A stretch of DNA of 35,696 nucleotides from Planctomycetota bacterium. GTDB lineage: Bacteria; Planctomycetota; UBA11346. A model generated the notes under the pieces. That model had not been told where the DNA came from. It saw nothing but the letters and a program-made list of their open reading frames with translations, and did not search any database. Each line of letters opens with the position of its first letter. Position 1 is the first letter of the stretch. Shown here one piece after another: positions 16,274 to 24,989 of this stretch. Made by a program: the position numbers and the translations under genes. The stretch is from assembly GCA_013696105.1 (NCBI GenBank), contig JACCZE010000124.1:1-35696 (forward strand), in the 5' to 3' direction.

Positions 16274-17812
16274 ATGGCACGTCAATCCTCCAGCTCGCAG
16301 ACTCCGAAGCGCCGATCCAGTGGCGGAGGCGGAGGCTACCTCTTCGTCATCATCCTGATCGCCGGGCTGGCCTGCACCTTCGTCTTCGCCGGCGACAAGG
16401 TGCGCTCGATGCTGGGCATCGCGAAGAAGCCCTCGGACGAGGGCGCCGAACCAACCGCTCCGGTGGCCGTGGAAGGGAGCGGCGCGCAGAAGGTCGACCA
16501 CCAGGGAGACATGCCGCCGTCGGGGGTCACGACCGTGAAGAAGGAGGCGCCCAAACCGACGGCCCCCGTCGCCAAGCCGATCGAGCAGGGTCCCACCTTC
16601 AAGGACCAGGCGAAAGCCGAGAAGATCCTCGCCGAAGCCGAGAAGGCCTATGCCGCGTTCCAATGGCAGGACGCCAAGAGCGCAGCGGCCAAGCTCAGGG
16701 GCCTGGACGCGAAGAAGGACATCCTCGCCCGCGCCTCGGACATCTCCACCGGCGCCACCGAGATCGAGAACCTCTTCAAGGGCCTGGATGATCGCGACGA
16801 GCTCACACGCAACTACGACACCGATCCCAGCCTGGTGCAGATCGGAGAAGGCAAGGGCGCGATGTTCGTCGTGCCGGTCGTGGACGACAGCAAGCCGCCG
16901 ACCATCGTCGATCAGGATCCGCTGAACTACATCAGGCAGAAGAACCAAGCCGGGTCCAAGATCTGGGCGCTGATAAAGGGCAATAAGGATTTCATGCTCG
17001 GTCAGCTGCCGGACACCCTTGGCGACCTGGCACTGGTGGACCAGAAGAGCGTGCGCTCCGAGAAGCTCTCGGAATTCAACGCGAAGGTGGCTACCCTGCG
17101 CAACAGCACGCGCGCCAACGACGCGCTCGCCTGGTACGACGGCGCCAAATACGCCTACCGCAACCGCCTCGACGACCACGTCACGAAGATGCTCGACCGT
17201 GCGCTCGACCTCGACCCCGATCTGGTCAAGACGGTGCGCGAGGACAAGGCGGCCAAGCTGTACGCCAACATGGTGTTCCACCTGCAGAACAACAATCGCA
17301 AGCAGGCGGACACCTTCATCACCATCATCAGGCGCAAGTTCGCCGACACCGATCAGGGCAAGCAGGCACAGTTGTGCTACGACGGCAAGACCGGCGAGCT
17401 GGTGGCCCTCGCGATGCAGGAGGACCAGCGCCGCAAGGACGAGACGCAGCGGCGCATGCAGGCCCGCATCGAGAAGGCCAAGAACGCGGGCGACCTCGAA
17501 AAGGTCGCAGCGATCGAGAAGGAGCAACCGGTCGAGGAGACCGAAGAGGTGGTGATCTCCGGCAGCCCGGACGAGGCCGCCGCCGAGAAGGAGTTCAACG
17601 AGGGCTACGCTCTGTACGCCAAGGCCAACGACATGCCGCCGGTCGCCGGTCGCAATGTCTTCTACAAGGATGCCGCGAAGCACTTCGAGAAGGCCGTGGC
17701 GATGTACCGCAAGCTGGTCGAGAAGAACCCGAGCGATACCAACCTGCAGAACAAGATGGTGCGCGCGAGTCAGCTGAAATTCGGATCCCACAAGAACCAG
17801 ACCGCGTTCTGA
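16274..17812 (+). CDS. membrane-anchored solenoid-like hypothetical protein
   Basis: Predicted 512-residue protein of unknown function. A short Ser/Gly-rich cytoplasmic N-terminus is followed by one membrane segment (about 21-39), a Pro/Ala/Lys-rich linker to about 115, and a long charged helical region. The end carries TPR-like units (NEGYALYAKAN and AKHFEKAVAMYRKLVEKNPSD). The architecture suggests a periplasmic scaffold held by one anchor. GGAG lies eight bases before the ATG; a TACAAT at 16162-16167 inside the previous gene might be its promoter. The heptad-hairpin pair starts about 20 bases after its stop. Confidence 0.7.
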   Translation: MARQSSSSQTPKRRSSGGGGGYLFVIILIAGLACTFVFAGDKVRSMLGIAKKPSDEGAEPTAPVAVEGSGAQKVDHQGDMPPSGVTTVKKEAPKPTAPVAKPIEQGPTFKDQAKAEKILAEAEKAYAAFQWQDAKSAAAKLRGLDAKKDILARASDISTGATEIENLFKGLDDRDELTRNYDTDPSLVQIGEGKGAMFVVPVVDDSKPPTIVDQDPLNYIRQKNQAGSKIWALIKGNKDFMLGQLPDTLGDLALVDQKSVRSEKLSEFNAKVATLRNSTRANDALAWYDGAKYAYRNRLDDHVTKMLDRALDLDPDLVKTVREDKAAKLYANMVFHLQNNNRKQADTFITIIRRKFADTDQGKQAQLCYDGKTGELVALAMQEDQRRKDETQRRMQARIEKAKNAGDLEKVAAIEKEQPVEETEEVVISGSPDEAAAEKEFNEGYALYAKANDMPPVAGRNVFYKDAAKHFEKAVAMYRKLVEKNPSDTNLQNKMVRASQLKFGSHKNQTAF

Positions 17813-17832
17813 ACATACGTCCTCAGTTCTGC

Positions 17833-17909
17833 GTGCTCCGTTCTCCGTCGGACAGCCGTTCGATATAACGAGTCCCAGTTCCAGCCCCGTTAGACGGAGA
17901 ACGGAGAAC
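17833..17909. repeat. heptad-hairpin element, copy 1
   Basis: Left arm 17833-17849 and right arm 17893-17909 pair at 16 of 17 positions and are built of TTCTCCG/CGGAGAA 7-base units. The 43-base loop begins GGACAGCCG. It follows the stop codon of the gene at 16274 by 20 bases. Confidence 0.85.
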
Positions 17910-17910
17910 C

Positions 17911-18020
17911 TCCGTGCTCCGTGCTCCGTTCTCCGTCGGACAGCCGCACCCGATCCAGCGAGTCCCGTTCCAGCACCGATGGACTGAGAACGGAGAACCG
18001 AGAACCGAGAACGGAGAACC
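17911..18020. repeat. heptad-hairpin element, copy 2
   Basis: The left arm (17911-17937) is four CTCCGTN-type units and the right arm (17982-18020) is five CNGAGAA-type units, complementary with few mismatches. The 44-base loop begins GGACAGCCG. It abuts copy 1 with one base between and is followed by CTTTTT, so on the plus strand it may terminate transcription. Confidence 0.85.
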
Positions 18021-18038
18021 CTTTTTCTCGTCCGCCCC

Positions 18039-18065
18039 TTGCCGCATCGCCGAGCCGGCAACACT
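18039..18065 (+). promoter_or_regulatory. candidate promoter of the SGNH hydrolase
   Basis: TTGCCG (18039-18044), a 15-base spacer and AACACT (18060-18065) end 7 bases before ATG 18073. There is no Shine-Dalgarno, which fits a leaderless transcript. The -10 match is weak. Confidence 0.3.
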
Positions 18066-18072
18066 GCGGTCC

Positions 18073-18729
18073 ATGCGCATAGCACCCAAGAGCAAGCTGG
18101 TCATGATCGGCGATTCCATCACCGACGTCGAACGCGCGCGTCCGATCGGCGAGGGGCTCTTCGGCGCACTCGGCAAGGGCTACGTCGCCTACGTCGACGG
18201 ATTGCTCGCCTCGGCCTATCCGGCGCACCGCATCCGCGTGGTGAATGTCGGCACCAGCGGCAACACCGTGCGCGACCTCAAGGCCCGCTGGCAGACCGAC
18301 GTCCTCGACCTGAAACCGGATTGGCTCTCGATCATGATCGGGATCAACGACGTCTGGCGCCAGTTCGATTCGCCCCTGCGCACCGAGATCCACGTCGGCC
18401 TCGATGAATACCAGCGCACCCTCGAGGAACTCGTCGCCGCCACCAAACCGTCGCTCAAAGGCCTGGTGCTGATGACGCCGTTCTACATCGAGACGAACCG
18501 CCAGGACGCCATGCGCGCGCAGATGGACCGCTACGGCGCTGCGGTCGGGGCCGTCGCCAAGAAGCACGGCGCCATCCTGGTCGACATGCAGGCCGCCTAC
18601 GACCGCGTACTCGCTCACGGGCACTCCGCCGGTCTGGCCTGGGATCGCGTCCACCCCACCCATGTTGGGCACATGCTCATGGCGCGCGCGTTCCTCGACG
18701 GCATCGGATACGAATGGCGGGGGGAATAG
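18073..18729 (+). CDS. SGNH/GDSL-family esterase
   Basis: Predicted 218-residue cytoplasmic SGNH hydrolase. All four family blocks are present in order: GDSIT (nucleophile Ser near residue 14), the block II Gly in GTSGNTV, GIND (Gly and Asn of blocks III) and the DRVHPT block V with catalytic Asp and His. The order and spacing are like rhamnogalacturonan acetylesterase-type and lysophospholipase-like members, which deacetylate or hydrolyse carbohydrate or lipid esters; the substrate is not predictable. No signal peptide is seen. ATG 18073 places GDSIT at the expected distance from the start. The gene is bracketed by heptad-hairpin elements on both sides. Confidence 0.9.
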   Translation: MRIAPKSKLVMIGDSITDVERARPIGEGLFGALGKGYVAYVDGLLASAYPAHRIRVVNVGTSGNTVRDLKARWQTDVLDLKPDWLSIMIGINDVWRQFDSPLRTEIHVGLDEYQRTLEELVAATKPSLKGLVLMTPFYIETNRQDAMRAQMDRYGAAVGAVAKKHGAILVDMQAAYDRVLAHGHSAGLAWDRVHPTHVGHMLMARAFLDGIGYEWRGE

Positions 18730-18736
18730 AAAGGCC

Positions 18737-18839
18737 CTCCGTGCTCCGTCCTCGGTGCTCCGTCGGACAGCCGAAGCCATCCCGACGCGACCGATCCCAG
18801 CTCCGGTAGACGGAGGACCCAGGACGGAGGACGGAGCAC
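18737..18839. repeat. heptad-hairpin element, copy 3
   Basis: Four 7-base units on the left (CTCCGTG, CTCCGTC, CTCGGTG, CTCCGTC; 18737-18764) face four on the right (GACGGAG, GACCCAG, GACGGAG, GACGGAG; 18809-18836), matching at 25 of 28 positions. The 44-base loop begins GGACAGCCG. It begins 7 bases after the SGNH hydrolase stop. Confidence 0.88.
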
Positions 18840-18851
18840 GTTTCCATCGTC

Positions 18852-18953
18852 CTCCGTGCTCCGTCCTCGGTGCTCCGTCGGACAGCCGAAGCCGATTTGA
18901 CGAAGCAGATTCCGCACTGGTAGACGGAGAACGGAGGACAGAGGACGGAGCAC
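18852..18953. repeat. heptad-hairpin element, copy 4
   Basis: Left units at 18852-18879 are identical to copy 3; right units are GACGGAG, AACGGAG, GACAGAG, GACGGAG (18923-18950). The 43-base loop begins GGACAGCCG. A 43-base block (18736-18778 and 18851-18893) is identical between copies 3 and 4. It ends 7 bases before the yicC stop codon, filling the convergent gap. Confidence 0.88.
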
Positions 18954-18960
18954 CTCTGTC

Positions 18961-19815
18961 TTAAGCGATATTCGCCGCCTGTTCGCGCATCTGCTCGAGC
19001 ACGTGCTTGGTCTCGAGGACATGGGCGGTCAGACGCGCATCGTTGGCCTTCGCGCCGGTGGTATTGACCTCGCGCGCGCACTCCTGCAGCAGGAACTCGA
19101 GCTTGCGGCCGATCTGATCCTCGGGCGATGACACCAGGGACTCGAGCGCGTCCAGATGCGCGGCGAAGCGCACCAGCTCCTCCGAGACATCGATGCGCTC
19201 GGCATGGAGCGCGAGTTCGCGCACCAGCAGCTCGGGCGTGACCGCGGCTTGGCCCTGGAGGACCTCGCGCAACCGTGCGGACAACGATTCGCGGTACGAC
19301 GCCGTCCGCCCCGCGGCGCTGTCGACCATGCCGCGCAGCTGCGTGCGCAGCGTCCGCACGTGCGCAGCGAGGTCGCGCGCCAATGCGGCGCCTTCGCGCG
19401 CGCGCATGGAGACGAGGTCCGCGACCGCCTGGGCCAAGGCCTGGCGGATCAACGGCTCGGCTCCGGTGCGCGATTCCTGGCGCGCGGTCGGCAGCAGGGC
19501 CGCGACGCGTTCGATGGTCGGCGCGGGTGCGCCGAGCTCGCTCGCCAATGCCGCGAGTTCACGCCAGGTCTGGGACAGGCGTGCGCGGTCGAAAGCCGCG
19601 GACTGGGCGGCCTGGAACGAGACCTGGGCGTTCACGGATCCGCGCACGAGTGCGGTGCGCAGCTCTTGGCGGACGACCTCCTCGAGCGCGACGTCGTGCA
19701 GGTCCGAACGCAGGTGGATCGCCAGCGAGCGGTTGTTCACCGCGCTGATCTGCACCGTCGCCCTGCCACCCGCATCGGCAGCGGCGCCTTGTCCGAATCC
19801 GGTCATCGAATGCAT
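18961..19815 (-). CDS. yicC: YicC/YloC-family endoribonuclease
   Basis: Predicted 284-residue member of the YicC family (RNA endonucleases of stress physiology, acting in the cytoplasm). The N-terminal MTGFGQG strand, the internal VNNRSLAIHLR segment and the C-terminal IGRKLEFLLQECAREVNT region are family hallmarks; DUF1732 forms the C-terminal part. ATG 19815 has a GAGG-type Shine-Dalgarno that overlaps the lpxB stop region; an ATG three codons later is also possible. It lies 7 bases after lpxB on the same strand, so translation is probably coupled. In many genomes yicC instead precedes gmk. Its 3' end abuts heptad-hairpin copy 4. Confidence 0.93.
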   Translation of the reverse strand: MHSMTGFGQGAAADAGGRATVQISAVNNRSLAIHLRSDLHDVALEEVVRQELRTALVRGSVNAQVSFQAAQSAAFDRARLSQTWRELAALASELGAPAPTIERVAALLPTARQESRTGAEPLIRQALAQAVADLVSMRAREGAALARDLAAHVRTLRTQLRGMVDSAAGRTASYRESLSARLREVLQGQAAVTPELLVRELALHAERIDVSEELVRFAAHLDALESLVSSPEDQIGRKLEFLLQECAREVNTTGAKANDARLTAHVLETKHVLEQMREQAANIA

Positions 19816-19822
19816 GCGTGCC

Positions 19823-21046
19823 TCACCCGTCGGTCCCGAGATGGCGATTGCCTGAGGGATAGACCTGCGTCTCGCGGCGCCTGCCGATCTCGAGCTCCTC
19901 GGCCAGGATGTTCGCGATGGTGGCGATCGCACCCCCCGCGCCCAGGCGCTGCCGCAGCTCGACGAGATCCGCTCGGCAGGCCTCGCGCGCAGGACCGGCC
20001 CATAGGCGTTCGATGTGCGCGACCAGACGTGGGACGGTGAGCTGGTCCTGCAGGACCTCGGGGCACGCCCGCCGTTCGAGCACCAGGTTCGGCAGGCCGA
20101 CGTGCTCGGTGCGGATGACCTGCCGGGCGATGGCTGCGGTGATCCGGTCCATGCGATAGGCGATGATGTGCGGCAGGCCGATGATGCCGGCTTCGAGCGT
20201 GGCGGTACCCGAGGCGATCAGACCCAGGTGCGCGCGCGCGCAGAGTTCACGGAAATGGCCTTCGATCAGCGGGAAGTGCGAATGCCGGCGATAGAGATCC
20301 ATCGGCAGGTCGGGAACCTTGGCGATCGCCACCGCCACCTGACCGGTGCGGCGCATGGCGGCTTCCGCCGCGTGATGGTAGATCGGCAGCAGCGTGCTCA
20401 CCTCGCGTTCCCGGCTGCCGGGAGCCAGCAGCAGGAGCGGTCGGCTCGCGTCGATTCCCAATGCGCGATCGATGCCCGAGGTATCGAACCGCTTCGCCAC
20501 CAGATCCACCAGTGGATGGCCGATGAAATCCGCGCGGCAGCCGAAGCGCGAGAACAGCGGCGGCTCGAACGGGAAGAAGCACAGGAGGCGGTCGATCGAA
20601 TGGGCGACCGACTTCGCCCGCCGGGGCTTCCAGGCCCAGACCTGCGGCGCCACCACGTGCACGAAGCGCGTGCCCGCGTGGCGCACATCGGCCAGGCGCC
20701 GCGCGAGGCGCAGGTTGAATCCAGGGTAGTCGATGGTGAGGACCACCTTGGGCTTGCGCTGCCGCACCAGGTGCGCCATGCGCAGCCCCAGGCGGATGAA
20801 CTGCGGCAGACGCGCCAAGACCGGGAACAGGCCCATGACCGCCAGGCCCTCGATATCCTGTTCGACCTCGGCCCCCGCCTTGGCCAGCTCGGGTCCGCCC
20901 ATCGCCGCGCAGACCGTGTCCGGCTGGCGTCGTCTGAGCTCCTCGAGGATGGCCGCGCCATAGGCGTCACCCGACGGTTCCCCGGCGATGATGAAGACGT
21001 CGCAGGTGGGGGTCAAACCCATGGGCGGATATGCTGGTAGCGACAT
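19823..21046 (-). CDS. lpxB: lipid-A-disaccharide synthase
   Basis: Predicted 407-residue GT19 glycosyltransferase that condenses UDP-2,3-diacylglucosamine with lipid X to give lipid A disaccharide, at the inner membrane face. Visible family motifs are GEPSGD near residues 22-27, LTIDYPGFN, HVVAPQVWAWKPRR, LLAPGSREREV and ASGTATLEAG. ATG 21046 is the likely start; ATG 21022, eight codons later, is an alternative, and neither has a strong Shine-Dalgarno. Its presence is the best evidence for an LPS-type outer membrane. It is the first gene of an lpxB-yicC operon and divergent from the second FHA kinase; other lpx genes are not in the window. Confidence 0.95.
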   Translation of the reverse strand: MSLPAYPPMGLTPTCDVFIIAGEPSGDAYGAAILEELRRRQPDTVCAAMGGPELAKAGAEVEQDIEGLAVMGLFPVLARLPQFIRLGLRMAHLVRQRKPKVVLTIDYPGFNLRLARRLADVRHAGTRFVHVVAPQVWAWKPRRAKSVAHSIDRLLCFFPFEPPLFSRFGCRADFIGHPLVDLVAKRFDTSGIDRALGIDASRPLLLLAPGSREREVSTLLPIYHHAAEAAMRRTGQVAVAIAKVPDLPMDLYRRHSHFPLIEGHFRELCARAHLGLIASGTATLEAGIIGLPHIIAYRMDRITAAIARQVIRTEHVGLPNLVLERRACPEVLQDQLTVPRLVAHIERLWAGPAREACRADLVELRQRLGAGGAIATIANILAEELEIGRRRETQVYPSGNRHLGTDG

Positions 21047-21180
21047 CGGCGGTCGCCAGGGCTCATTTGCCCCACCCGGACGTGGGCCCTCAACGGGGCG
21101 CGGCACTGGCGGTATGCATTGCCCTTCGATCGTCGGTAACGTTTGCAGCAAAAGGGGTTCGCGCCGCGTACCACCTTGCT

Positions 21181-21207
21181 TTGCGGCGCTGCCAGCCACT
21201 CTAGGCT
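21181..21207 (+). promoter_or_regulatory. candidate promoter of the second FHA kinase
   Basis: TTGCGG (21181-21186), a 15-base spacer and TAGGCT (21202-21207) precede ATG 21222. GGGAGG (21213-21218) is a strong but close Shine-Dalgarno. Confidence 0.45.
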
Positions 21208-21221
21208 CTCGCGGGAGGCGC

Positions 21222-23675
21222 ATGCCCAAGCTGGTCTGCCAATCCGGTCCCACCGCCGGTCACGAGTATCCTCTGACCAAGGATGTCACCATCCTCGGGC
21301 GGCAGTCGGCCTGCGACGTGCAGATCCACGACACCATGTCCAGCCGGGCTCACTGCCAGGTGCGGCGTGACGGCAAGCTGTTCAGCCTGGTCGATCTCGG
21401 CTCGCGCAACGGCACCCTGCTCAACGGCAAGAAGGTCTCTGAACGCCAGCTGTCCTTCGGCGACCGCATCGCCGTGGGCCACGCCGAATACCTGTTCGTC
21501 AAGGAAGCCGGCGACGTCGAGCTCAAGGACCTGCTGTCGAAGTACGAGATCCTCGAGAAGATCGGCGAAGGCGGCATGGGCATCGTCTACAAGGCGAACC
21601 AGCGCTCGATGGCCCGGGTGGTCGCCCTCAAGATCCTGTCGCCCAAGTACATCTCGAAGCCCAAGTTCGTCGATCAGTTCACGCGCGAGGCGCGCGCCGC
21701 CGGCTCACTGAACCATCCGAACATCATCCAGGTCCACGACGTCGGCACCGAGAACGAGATCCACTACTTCTCGATGGAATTCGTCGACGGCCCGACGTGC
21801 ATGCAGGTGCTGAAGCAGCAGGGGCCGTTCCCGGTGAACGATGCCCTCGAAATCATCCGCCAGACCGCGAAGGCGCTCGAGTACGCCCATGCGCACCGCC
21901 TGATCCATCAGGACATCAAGCCCGACAACATCATGGTCGGGCCGAACAACATCGTGAAGCTCGCGGATCTGGGCATCAGCAAGACCTTCGACGAGGTCGA
22001 AGCCGACGAAGCCGTGAAGAAGGTCATGGGCACGCCGCATTACATGGCGCCCGAAGCCGCACTCGGCAAGAAGATCGACCAGCGCGTGGACCTCTACAGC
22101 CTGGGCGCCACCGCGTACCACCTGCTTACCGGCAAGACCCCGTTCAGCGGTTCGAGCCCGACCGAAGTGCTCAAGCACCACGTGATGGATCCGCTGCCTC
22201 CGATCAGCGAACACAACGCGTCGGTCCCGGACAACGTCGTCGCGCTGATCGAGCGGATGATGGCCAAAAAGCCGGAGGACCGCTACCAGAGCGCGACCGA
22301 GGTGCTCGAGGAGATCCGCCGCATCGGCGCCGGCGAGGGCATGGGCACCGAGCGCATCGGCGGCGGCGAGACCATGATCCTGCGCCGCTACGCCAAGGAC
22401 GGCTTCGCCGCGGCGTCGGTCCCCACCCCGGGCGGCGGCACCACCGGCAGCCGCACCCCGGGCGCCGAGAACACCACTCCGGAAGGATCGAACTCCATCT
22501 CCGACGACCCGGGCGTGCGCACGCTCAACCGCATCATCCGCGTTGCGATCGTCGGCGTGATCGCGCTGATCGTGATCTTCATCGCCAATTCGCTGCTGAG
22601 CGGTCCACCCGCTCCTCCTCAGTCCGTGACTGCCCCGCCGGTATCCCAGAACCCGACGAAGAACCCGGTCGACCCATTACCCGAAGATCCCGCCCCCGCG
22701 GCAGCCGCCGAGGCCGCCGCTGCCGCGCAGGCGAAGGCAGCCGCCGAACTCGCCGCGCTCGAGGACCGCATCGCCAAGGAGGGTGACGCAGCTGACACCA
22801 CCAAGCTGACCAAGGAGCTCGAGCGCATCACCGACGAATCGCTGAATGCGTCGAACCTCGACCGCGCGAAGAAAGTCGGAGAGCGCATCGAAGCCCTGAT
22901 CACCCGCAAACGCAGCCAGCAGGTCGTCGCCGCCTATGCCTCGCTGACGAAGGACGTCGGGAAACTGGTCGATGAGCGCGATTACGACAACGCCTTGTCC
23001 CGGCTGGACGCGTTCCCTGATCGCCGCAATCCGGCGGTGAAACCGTCGTTCGACAAGCTGCGCTCGTCGGTCGAGCAGTCGAAGACGCAATACCTGACCG
23101 AGCTCAGCCAACGCATCGTGGACCTGTCGGGCCAGAAGGACGGACCGGGACTGAAGCAGCTGCGCGACTCGCTTCCCAGCGCCCTTCTCGGGACCGGCGT
23201 CGAGCAGGACATCATCAAGGCGATGAAGACGATCGATGACGAGAGGCAGGCGCAGTTCCAGACCATCGCCGCTGCAGCAGCGAAGGACCTCGTCTCCTGG
23301 CGGTTCGCCGAGCTCGAGAACCGCTGCAAGAATTCCCGCCCGGCCATGGGTGCATCGCCGGCCGGCACCCAGCTCGACCAGTACCGGGAGGCGGCCCAGA
23401 AATTATCCGCGTTGGTGGCCACGGTCGGCCCGAAGCTCGCTGCGCGCAAGATACGATTCCGCGGCAACCTGCTTGGATCCGAGGATCCCGACATGACGAA
23501 TGGCAGCCTGGAACAAGGGCTCGAGCTGACGGTCGAGAGCGGCGGACATCTCGAGATCAAATGGTCGTCGATCCCGGTCGAGGACCTCGCGACGATCGCC
23601 ACGCTGGTGTTGGGCAAGGACGCAGAGACCTACAAGCCCGCGATCAGCACCTTGGCCGCGGCAAAAGGAAAATGA
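21222..23675 (+). CDS. FHA domain Ser/Thr protein kinase, membrane-anchored
   Basis: Predicted 817-residue kinase with the same plan as the one at 103-2742. The FHA domain (about 22-90; GRQSACD, SSRAHC, SRNGT) binds phosphothreonine. The kinase domain (about 108-370) has GEGGMG at 115-120, Lys137 in VALKIL, HQDIKPDN at 229-236 with the catalytic Asp231 and Asn236, DLG at 249-251 and APE at 276-278, so it should be active; HRD is HQD. A membrane segment at about 437-458 is followed by a Pro-rich linker, an Ala/Glu-rich coiled coil and a short beta-rich end. Substrates are unknown. GGGAGG supports the ATG. It lies just before rsgA on the same strand. Confidence 0.92.
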   Translation: MPKLVCQSGPTAGHEYPLTKDVTILGRQSACDVQIHDTMSSRAHCQVRRDGKLFSLVDLGSRNGTLLNGKKVSERQLSFGDRIAVGHAEYLFVKEAGDVELKDLLSKYEILEKIGEGGMGIVYKANQRSMARVVALKILSPKYISKPKFVDQFTREARAAGSLNHPNIIQVHDVGTENEIHYFSMEFVDGPTCMQVLKQQGPFPVNDALEIIRQTAKALEYAHAHRLIHQDIKPDNIMVGPNNIVKLADLGISKTFDEVEADEAVKKVMGTPHYMAPEAALGKKIDQRVDLYSLGATAYHLLTGKTPFSGSSPTEVLKHHVMDPLPPISEHNASVPDNVVALIERMMAKKPEDRYQSATEVLEEIRRIGAGEGMGTERIGGGETMILRRYAKDGFAAASVPTPGGGTTGSRTPGAENTTPEGSNSISDDPGVRTLNRIIRVAIVGVIALIVIFIANSLLSGPPAPPQSVTAPPVSQNPTKNPVDPLPEDPAPAAAAEAAAAAQAKAAAELAALEDRIAKEGDAADTTKLTKELERITDESLNASNLDRAKKVGERIEALITRKRSQQVVAAYASLTKDVGKLVDERDYDNALSRLDAFPDRRNPAVKPSFDKLRSSVEQSKTQYLTELSQRIVDLSGQKDGPGLKQLRDSLPSALLGTGVEQDIIKAMKTIDDERQAQFQTIAAAAAKDLVSWRFAELENRCKNSRPAMGASPAGTQLDQYREAAQKLSALVATVGPKLAARKIRFRGNLLGSEDPDMTNGSLEQGLELTVESGGHLEIKWSSIPVEDLATIATLVLGKDAETYKPAISTLAAAKGK

Positions 23676-23718
23676 CCCCGGCCGGCTGCGCCGCGCCCCG
23701 GATGCGAGGTGGATCGCC

Positions 23719-24861
23719 GTGAGCGGGAAGCAGGGGAAGTACAAGGGCGTCAAAGGCCACAACCAGCGCCAGGGGATGGGCCGGCTGCGCCGCGCGAACA
23801 CCAGCGATCCCGGTCGGGTCGGCGGATACGAGCGGCACGACGAGGACGCCGAGATCTTCGATCGCCTGGGATCGCTCGCGCGCGCATCCCACGGTGGCGA
23901 ATCGCTGCTGGCGAAATTCAACCGCCTCGCCGGCATCCCCGAGCAGGCCGGCGGTGAACGCGGCGAGATCTGCGGCTTCGCCGGCACGCTCACCCTGGTG
24001 CGCGCCGCCGCGGGAGCCGAGGTCCCCTGCAGCGTGCGCCAGGTGCTGAAGAAGCGCGTCAAGGGCGTGAAGAACCCGCTGTGCGTCGGCGATCTGGTCA
24101 CCTTCGAGCGTGCCGCCGATGGTTCGGGCGTCATCGATGCGGTTGCGCCCAGGCGCAACCAGCTCGAACGCGCAGACAGCCACAACCGTTCGCTGATACA
24201 CGTCTTCGCCTCGAACATCGATGCGCTGGTGGTGGTGAGCTCGCTGCACGAGCCCGACATCAAGCTGGGGCTGATCGATCGCTACCTGCTCATCGCCGCC
24301 GCCAACCGCATCCCGGCCTGCCTGGTGATCAACAAGAGCGATCTCGGCGATCCCTCGTTCGCGCTGACGCTCTACCGCGGGATCGGCATCCCGTGCTTCG
24401 CGACCATCGCCACCGGGACCGGCGACAGCGGACCCGATCTCGCCGCGCTGCGCGAACACCTCCATGGCAAGGCGTGCGTGATCGCGGGCCAGAGCGGCGT
24501 CGGCAAATCCTCTCTCGTGAATACGCTGTTCCCGGGAACGGGTGCGCGCGTCGGGGTGGTTGCGGACGCTGGGCACGGGCGGCACACCACCACCAGCTCG
24601 CGCAGCTACCTGATGCCTGACGGGGCGCGACTGATCGACACACCGGGCGTGCGCGAATGCTCGATCACCGGGCTGGTACCGCTGGATGTCTCGCTGCTCT
24701 ACCCCGACATAGCCGCGTTCCACCAGGCCTGCCACTTCAAGGATTGCACGCACCTGCACGAGCCGGAGTGCGCCGTCCGCACCGCTGTCGAGGACGGCCG
24801 CATCGCCGATACGCGGTATGACAGCTACTGTTCGATCATTCTGGAAGATCTGGTGATGTGA
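23719..24861 (+). CDS. rsgA: small ribosomal subunit biogenesis GTPase RsgA
   Basis: Predicted 380-residue circularly permuted GTPase that monitors late 30S maturation. The permuted order is clear: an OB-type N-terminal domain (about 80-150), then G4 NKSD (near 204), G1 GQSGVGKSS (near 256-264) and G3 DTPG (near 307-310), followed by a zinc site (CHFKDCTHLHEPEC, near 338-351). A basic N-terminal extension of about 75 residues precedes the OB domain. GTG 23719 has a GAGG Shine-Dalgarno about nine bases upstream. It begins 43 bases after the kinase stop and is convergent with the HNH gene, with heptad-hairpin copy 5 between. Confidence 0.95.
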   Translation: MSGKQGKYKGVKGHNQRQGMGRLRRANTSDPGRVGGYERHDEDAEIFDRLGSLARASHGGESLLAKFNRLAGIPEQAGGERGEICGFAGTLTLVRAAAGAEVPCSVRQVLKKRVKGVKNPLCVGDLVTFERAADGSGVIDAVAPRRNQLERADSHNRSLIHVFASNIDALVVVSSLHEPDIKLGLIDRYLLIAAANRIPACLVINKSDLGDPSFALTLYRGIGIPCFATIATGTGDSGPDLAALREHLHGKACVIAGQSGVGKSSLVNTLFPGTGARVGVVADAGHGRHTTTSSRSYLMPDGARLIDTPGVRECSITGLVPLDVSLLYPDIAAFHQACHFKDCTHLHEPECAVRTAVEDGRIADTRYDSYCSIILEDLVM

Positions 24862-24876
24862 TCCGGACGCCGCGTG

Positions 24877-24976
24877 CTCGGTGCTCCGTCCTTCGTCCTC
24901 CGTCGGACAACAGACCGCATTCGACGCCCAGATTCCTGTACCCCAAGACGGAGCACGGAGGACCGAGCACGGAGCA
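24877..24976. repeat. heptad-hairpin element, copy 5
   Basis: Left units CTCGGTG, CTCCGTC, CTTCGTC, CTCCGTC (24877-24904) face right units GACGGAG, CACGGAG, GACCGAG, CACGGAG (24947-24974). The 42-base loop begins GGACAACAG, a variant of GGACAGCCG. It fills the gap between the convergent rsgA and HNH genes. Confidence 0.85.
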
Positions 24977-24989
24977 CTCGCCGTCCGAA

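Follow-up and report, generated by a model that had tools for sequence, protein, structure and literature searches.

The closest published case to the repeats considered here is that of the heptamer arrays of Xanthomonas, with the units GGGAATC and (GGGANTN)n, and of Nostoc, with the unit GGGGA(C/T)T (Rehm et al. 2015, PMC4692102). In Xanthomonas four units are preferred, about 185 arrays are dispersed over each genome and 70-75 facing (convergent) pairs are formed; the arrays lie on average 28 nt from the upstream ORF, are rare between divergent genes and have 83% of their positions in common between two species, and the authors linked the preference for four units to G-quadruplexes (PMC4692102). 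REPs of the GTAG and CGTC superfamilies are intergenic palindromes found between genes that are unidirectional or convergent, most of them no more than 20 bp from a 3' end, and those of the CGTC families have stems of 8-9 bp and loops of 4-5 nt (PMC3733652). The TAACTGA repeats of Beggiatoaceae, Cyanobacteria and Bacteroidetes are intergenic heptamer arrays of 2-6 units near genes for which regulator binding has been proposed, and it was noted in the same work that one heptamer can be bound per protein by CspB of B. subtilis (PMC4679880).

The repeats described here were found in a 35,696-nt stretch of DNA from a Planctomycetota bacterium (hereafter the window). As in the Xanthomonas and Nostoc repeats, fixed and free letters are combined in a heptamer, four units are preferred, arrays face each other in pairs, placement is at 3' ends and positions are shared between species; unlike those repeats, the unit is CTNNGTN, without a G-tract in both species studied, almost all arrays stand in facing pairs and the stop codon lies 10 nt away. 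The elements adjoin the 3' ends of genes, as REPs do. With the TAACTGA repeats they share the form of intergenic heptamer arrays at a short distance from genes, although the latter are direct rather than inverted, lie mostly just upstream of start codons and have a nearly invariant unit. An earlier note on this DNA had held that the pattern was not that of a REP, ERIC, CRISPR or simple repeat, and this was borne out: the window copies are members of a family of inverted elements with heptamer arms, present in many dispersed copies.

Heptamer-armed copies in the window

Five inverted copies with heptamer arms were located in the window, at 17819-17909, 17910-18019, 18737-18839, 18849-18953 and 24874-24977, with loops of 43, 44, 44, 43 and 42 nt respectively. 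Coordinates and lengths were checked letter by letter, and the 7-base-unit arms, the loop lengths and the loop starts given in the earlier note (GGACAGCCG in four of the five copies, GGACAACAG in copy 5) were found to be exact. Left arms read on the plus strand and right arms on the minus strand; each arm holds four units, except the right arms of copy 1 (two units) and copy 2 (five units).

The left arm of copy 1 (17819-17849) starts 6 nt past the stop codon of an ORF at 16274-17812 and consists of GTN, four CTNNGTN units and a final C; it is followed by the loop (17850-17892) and the short right arm (17893-17909). Copy 2 follows directly, with its left arm at 17910-17937, loop at 17938-17981 and right arm at 17982-18019, after which comes CCTTTTTCTC. 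Copy 3 (left arm 18737-18764, loop 18765-18808, right arm 18809-18839) starts 7 nt past the stop codon of a GDSL gene (18073-18729), while copy 4 (left arm 18849-18879, loop 18880-18922, right arm 18923-18953) ends 7 nt short of the stop codon of the converging yicC gene (18961, minus strand); the first 15-17 nt of its loop are common to the loop of copy 3. Copy 5 (left arm 24874-24904, loop 24905-24946, right arm 24947-24977) lies between two converging genes, 12 nt past the stop codon of rsgA (24861) and 12 nt short of that of an HNH gene (24990, minus strand), so that the outer arms in the window stand 6-12 nt from stop codons.

The predicted RNA folding of the five copies was stronger than that of dinucleotide shuffles (z -3.5 to -6.5). 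Such strong folds, placed directly after stop codons as with REPs, are in keeping with an RNA hairpin whose stem would be formed by the arms and which, as a 3'-UTR structure, would end transcription or block 3' exonucleases, as proposed for REPs. Against this, an intrinsic-terminator scan, which covered loops of 3-8 nt only, found nothing resembling a terminator where the elements lie; CCTTTTT comes after copy 2, and the outer flank is rich in C and T but does not form a T-run.

Family size and repeat unit

The window is contig C225 of its own genome (G000; 4.33 Mb, 481 contigs, 79% complete), which was compared with its only same-genus relative (G001). Of the named hits to rsgA the closest was a Planctomycetota MAG (54% identity), from which the phylum was taken. 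The pattern CTCCGTBCTCSGTBCTCCGT, with up to 2 mismatches, gave 604 matches in G000 and none for the reversed control, so that chance does not account for them; the strict pattern matched exactly 219 times in G000 and not once in 58 relatives. When copies were read individually, the true unit was seen to be CTNNGTN, in which CT and GT are almost fixed and three positions are variable. Four consecutive CTNNGTN units were matched exactly 308 times in G000 and 82 times in G001, longer arrays giving several overlapping matches which were each counted. With a leading GTN and up to 2 mismatches there were 414 and 167 matches (reversed-pattern controls 0 and 2). The two species use different dialects of the unit, CTCCGT being preferred in G000 and CTGNGTT in G001.

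Among the other 21 genomes of the taxonomic family, a few matches were found in four, of which three scored below the reversed control. The CTNNGTN family is genus-specific, with no comparable signal in the rest of the taxonomic family. CTNNGTN was also considered as a phylum-wide signal and rejected as such: 33 of 392 genomes matched, but the reversed control also matched in many genomes, which indicates that it is heptamer arrays in general, and not the CTNNGTN skeleton, that are widespread. A search of the elements against Rfam gave no match above the gathering score and none that was credible, and comparable repeat strings looked for in the literature gave no matches.

In a small hand-read sample, heptamer arrays built of other units were seen across Planctomycetota, some as facing pairs (L188, L206). 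Within the same taxonomic family, facing heptamer arrays of other units were found in G009 (GGTTCCT; loci L252, L259 and L266, with a constant inner box GGTGCGCGC) and in G021 (GGTTCGT; L246 and L260). In addition, repeats with units of ~8-10 bases (e.g. AATCCGCGTCATCCGCGTAATCCGCGGTT) were seen beside heptamer arrays in other Planctomycetota (L182, L186, L194) and appeared by eye to be of a similar intergenic kind.

Array architecture

The G000 sequence assessed for architecture came to 858 kb, about a fifth of that genome, and the G001 sequence to 260 kb; both genomes are incomplete MAGs. Exactly four units were present in 83 of 139 arrays in G000 and in 33 of 54 in G001, four being the mode in both. 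Neighbouring arrays of opposite orientation faced each other in 55 cases vs 2 in G000 and 22 vs 1 in G001. An element consists of two facing arrays of about four units, GTN-(CTNNGTN)x4-C, which flank a loop, and measures about 67-220 bp. Just outside the arms the sequence is purine-rich and ends in AACGT, and the left loop end is often CGACAGCC or CGGACAGCC. The heptamer GGGCAAT was enriched just outside arrays in a single orientation (4 vs 0.37 expected in G000, 3 vs 0.09 in G001), and was also present beside a G021 array. Two further loci (L085:4323-4440 and L113:3536-3650) have a normal left arm with a right side made of a different heptamer, GTCGGAC.

The published reason for four units was examined in the same arms. 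Quadruplex-type arms with three Gs numbered 0 of 110 in G000 and 1 of 44 in G001, and those with two Gs 73 of 110 and 1 of 44 respectively; as quadruplex-capable arms are almost absent in G001, that reason cannot hold for the CTNNGTN family.

The earlier note had suggested that the arms grow by slippage, and signs of this were present. Neighbouring units were identical at all three variable positions more often than random units (0.264 vs 0.133 in one species, 0.25 vs 0.097 in the other), and some arrays have grown to 7-10 units. Together with the many kinds of heptamer arrays across Planctomycetota, this would fit elements that had arisen without function, through replication slippage and the copying of quasi-palindromes. 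Neutral growth, however, predicts neither a mode of four units, nor facing pairs, nor a fixed spacing from the stop codon, nor, at orthologous sites, a skeleton that stays fixed while other letters are free. Quasi-palindrome copying should give an element two similar arms, which is not the case; we consider this origin improbable.

Loops and the window subfamily

Loop length in the 55 elements of the 858 kb of G000 ranges from 13 to 143 nt, with a median of 47, each loop being measured 2 nt longer than by the loop definition of the earlier note. These loops, with heptamer arms of ~28 bp and the element size given above, set the family apart from REPs, which are palindromes of 20-40 bp with a GTAG or CGTC tag. 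Most loops are unrelated in sequence between copies and, when the copies of the window and of contigs C91 and C282 were left out, only 6 of 48 were within 40-47 nt.

Loop or element-wide homology was confined to the group formed by those three contigs. Copy 2, together with the preceding right arm of copy 1 and ~10 following bases, recurs in C91 (L098) among unrelated genes, where the loop is 96% identical, and the pair of copies 3 and 4 has, linker included, about 82% identity to a tandem pair in C282. From these comparisons the window copies look like one subfamily which has partly spread to other loci, and common descent of that subfamily would best explain the constancy of their loops. The earlier proposal that the constant loop is a functional unit was not supported; further copies were found in number in the genome and its relative, but their loop lengths are widely spread, in partial refutation of it. 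What the elements do hold constant is four units per array, built on the CT..GT skeleton, the way the arrays face each other and how far they stand from the stop codon.

Near-identical sequence in unrelated surroundings, as for copy 2 and for the pair of copies 3 and 4, would also fit a non-autonomous mobile element, a selfish repeat akin to MITEs or REPs and directed at gene ends, with the arms as terminal repeats bound by a transposase; the arms do face each other as terminal repeats would, and the expansion is genus-specific. The interiors, however, are not shared between copies outside the group above, unlike those of MITEs or insertion sequence ends, and no element with a gene enclosed by distant arms was found in the DNA that was read. 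Four weak Y1_Tnp matches were found in G000, none with an array within the surrounding 1.7-2.3 kb, so that these transposase (RAYT) loci are without arms; in the GTAG group of REPs the RAYT gene has the repeats on its flanks. In a search of the relative for an empty site corresponding to the C91 copy, no clear ortholog of the site was found.

Placement and conservation at gene ends

Gene calls were made with a purpose-written coding-score script, for which start-side distances are uncertain. In tandem intergenic regions the distance from stop codon to array had a median of 10 nt, and 83% of the distances were at most 17 nt, compared to 46% by random placement. An element was present in 14.6% of convergent, 9.7% of tandem and 5.2% of divergent regions.

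Conservation was assessed with 48 reciprocal best hits between the two species whose C-termini were aligned and whose proteins were on average 82% identical; 45 of the gene ends could be scored. Arrays were present at the orthologous gene end in both species in 9 cases, in G000 only in 1, in G001 only in 3 and in neither in 32 (P = 2.3e-6), in a set that was partly pre-selected, as most G001 contigs had been chosen for carrying arrays. Across 13 orthologous arms, identity was 96-100% for the letters of CT and GT and 19-42% for the variable ones; since it was the CT..GT skeleton by which arms were identified, strongly decayed arms would be missed and the conservation of the skeleton is partly built into the sample. 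Loops, like the variable letters, have drifted between the species while the positions of the elements have stayed shared. At one orthologous gene end (L118:10490-10650 vs L151:4012-4147), G001 has a heptamer element and G000 an unrelated inverted repeat (GCCAAGG / CCTTGGC-like); here two kinds of repeat occupy the same site.

Positions that are mostly common to both species argue against the mobile element set out above, as does a fixed skeleton with drifting free letters in old copies, which would not be expected of dead copies. We regard that explanation as unlikely.

Arm pairing and possible sequence recognition

Covariation between the two arms of an element was assessed by permutation within species. 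The inner two variable positions gave no signal (P = 0.77 and 0.69), and neither did all positions taken together (P = 0.20 and 0.42); a pairing signal at position 7 was weak in G000 (P = 0.03) and absent in G001 (P = 0.20). Arm-to-arm pairing as a conserved feature is unsupported at the two inner variable positions. A count in which the species were mixed did give apparent covariation, but this is confounded, as it can be explained by the dialects of the two species. No complementarity in total was found between outer and inner flanks, and real arms folded slightly better than chimeras.

These results bear on the RNA hairpin introduced with the window copies. The advantage of real arms over chimeras and the position 7 signal in G000 speak for it, in addition to the strong folds and the location after stop codons; the lack of covariation at the inner positions in either species, the ready explanation of the mixed-species count and the absence of terminator-like sites in the scan speak against it. 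Moreover, if selection acted on pairing alone, a change of CT or GT in one arm should be matched in the other, and instead both are nearly fixed as letters. A hairpin as the reason for the elements is possible but somewhat doubtful. The absence of within-species covariation at the inner positions, together with the fixation of CT and GT as letters, leads us to favour recognition of the sequence, with the hairpin as a probable by-product or helper.

Discussion

Tentatively, and with a little less than even confidence, we interpret the CTNNGTN repeats as a genus-specific REP-like 3'-end element, anchored to stop codons, whose skeleton is under selection and is read by a putative nucleic-acid-binding factor. 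Acting at gene ends on either RNA or DNA, such a factor would read about four 7-nt sites per arm, and its reading would keep the CT..GT skeleton under selection, while the loop between the arms would need no fixed length or sequence. The element may mark or protect the end of the transcript, or insulate the gene from its neighbour. Against this interpretation, the arms fold strongly, and with the position 7 signal and the difference from chimeras pairing may play a part; an expansion confined to one lineage and the scattering of copies would suit a selfish element as well.

A broader proposal, which at present seems unlikely to us, is that facing elements of four heptamers would form a general class at bacterial gene ends in several phyla, each lineage with its own unit, and that they would be read by a putative factor which binds about four 7-nt sites in register, and not through G-quadruplexes. 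What the present family contributes is that the four-unit mode, the facing pairs and the 3'-end placement occur with a unit which in one species is almost free of G-tracts, so that a quadruplex cannot be the general reason for them. The division of the unit into fixed and free letters, together with orthologous copies in two species, provides a direct handle on what is read.
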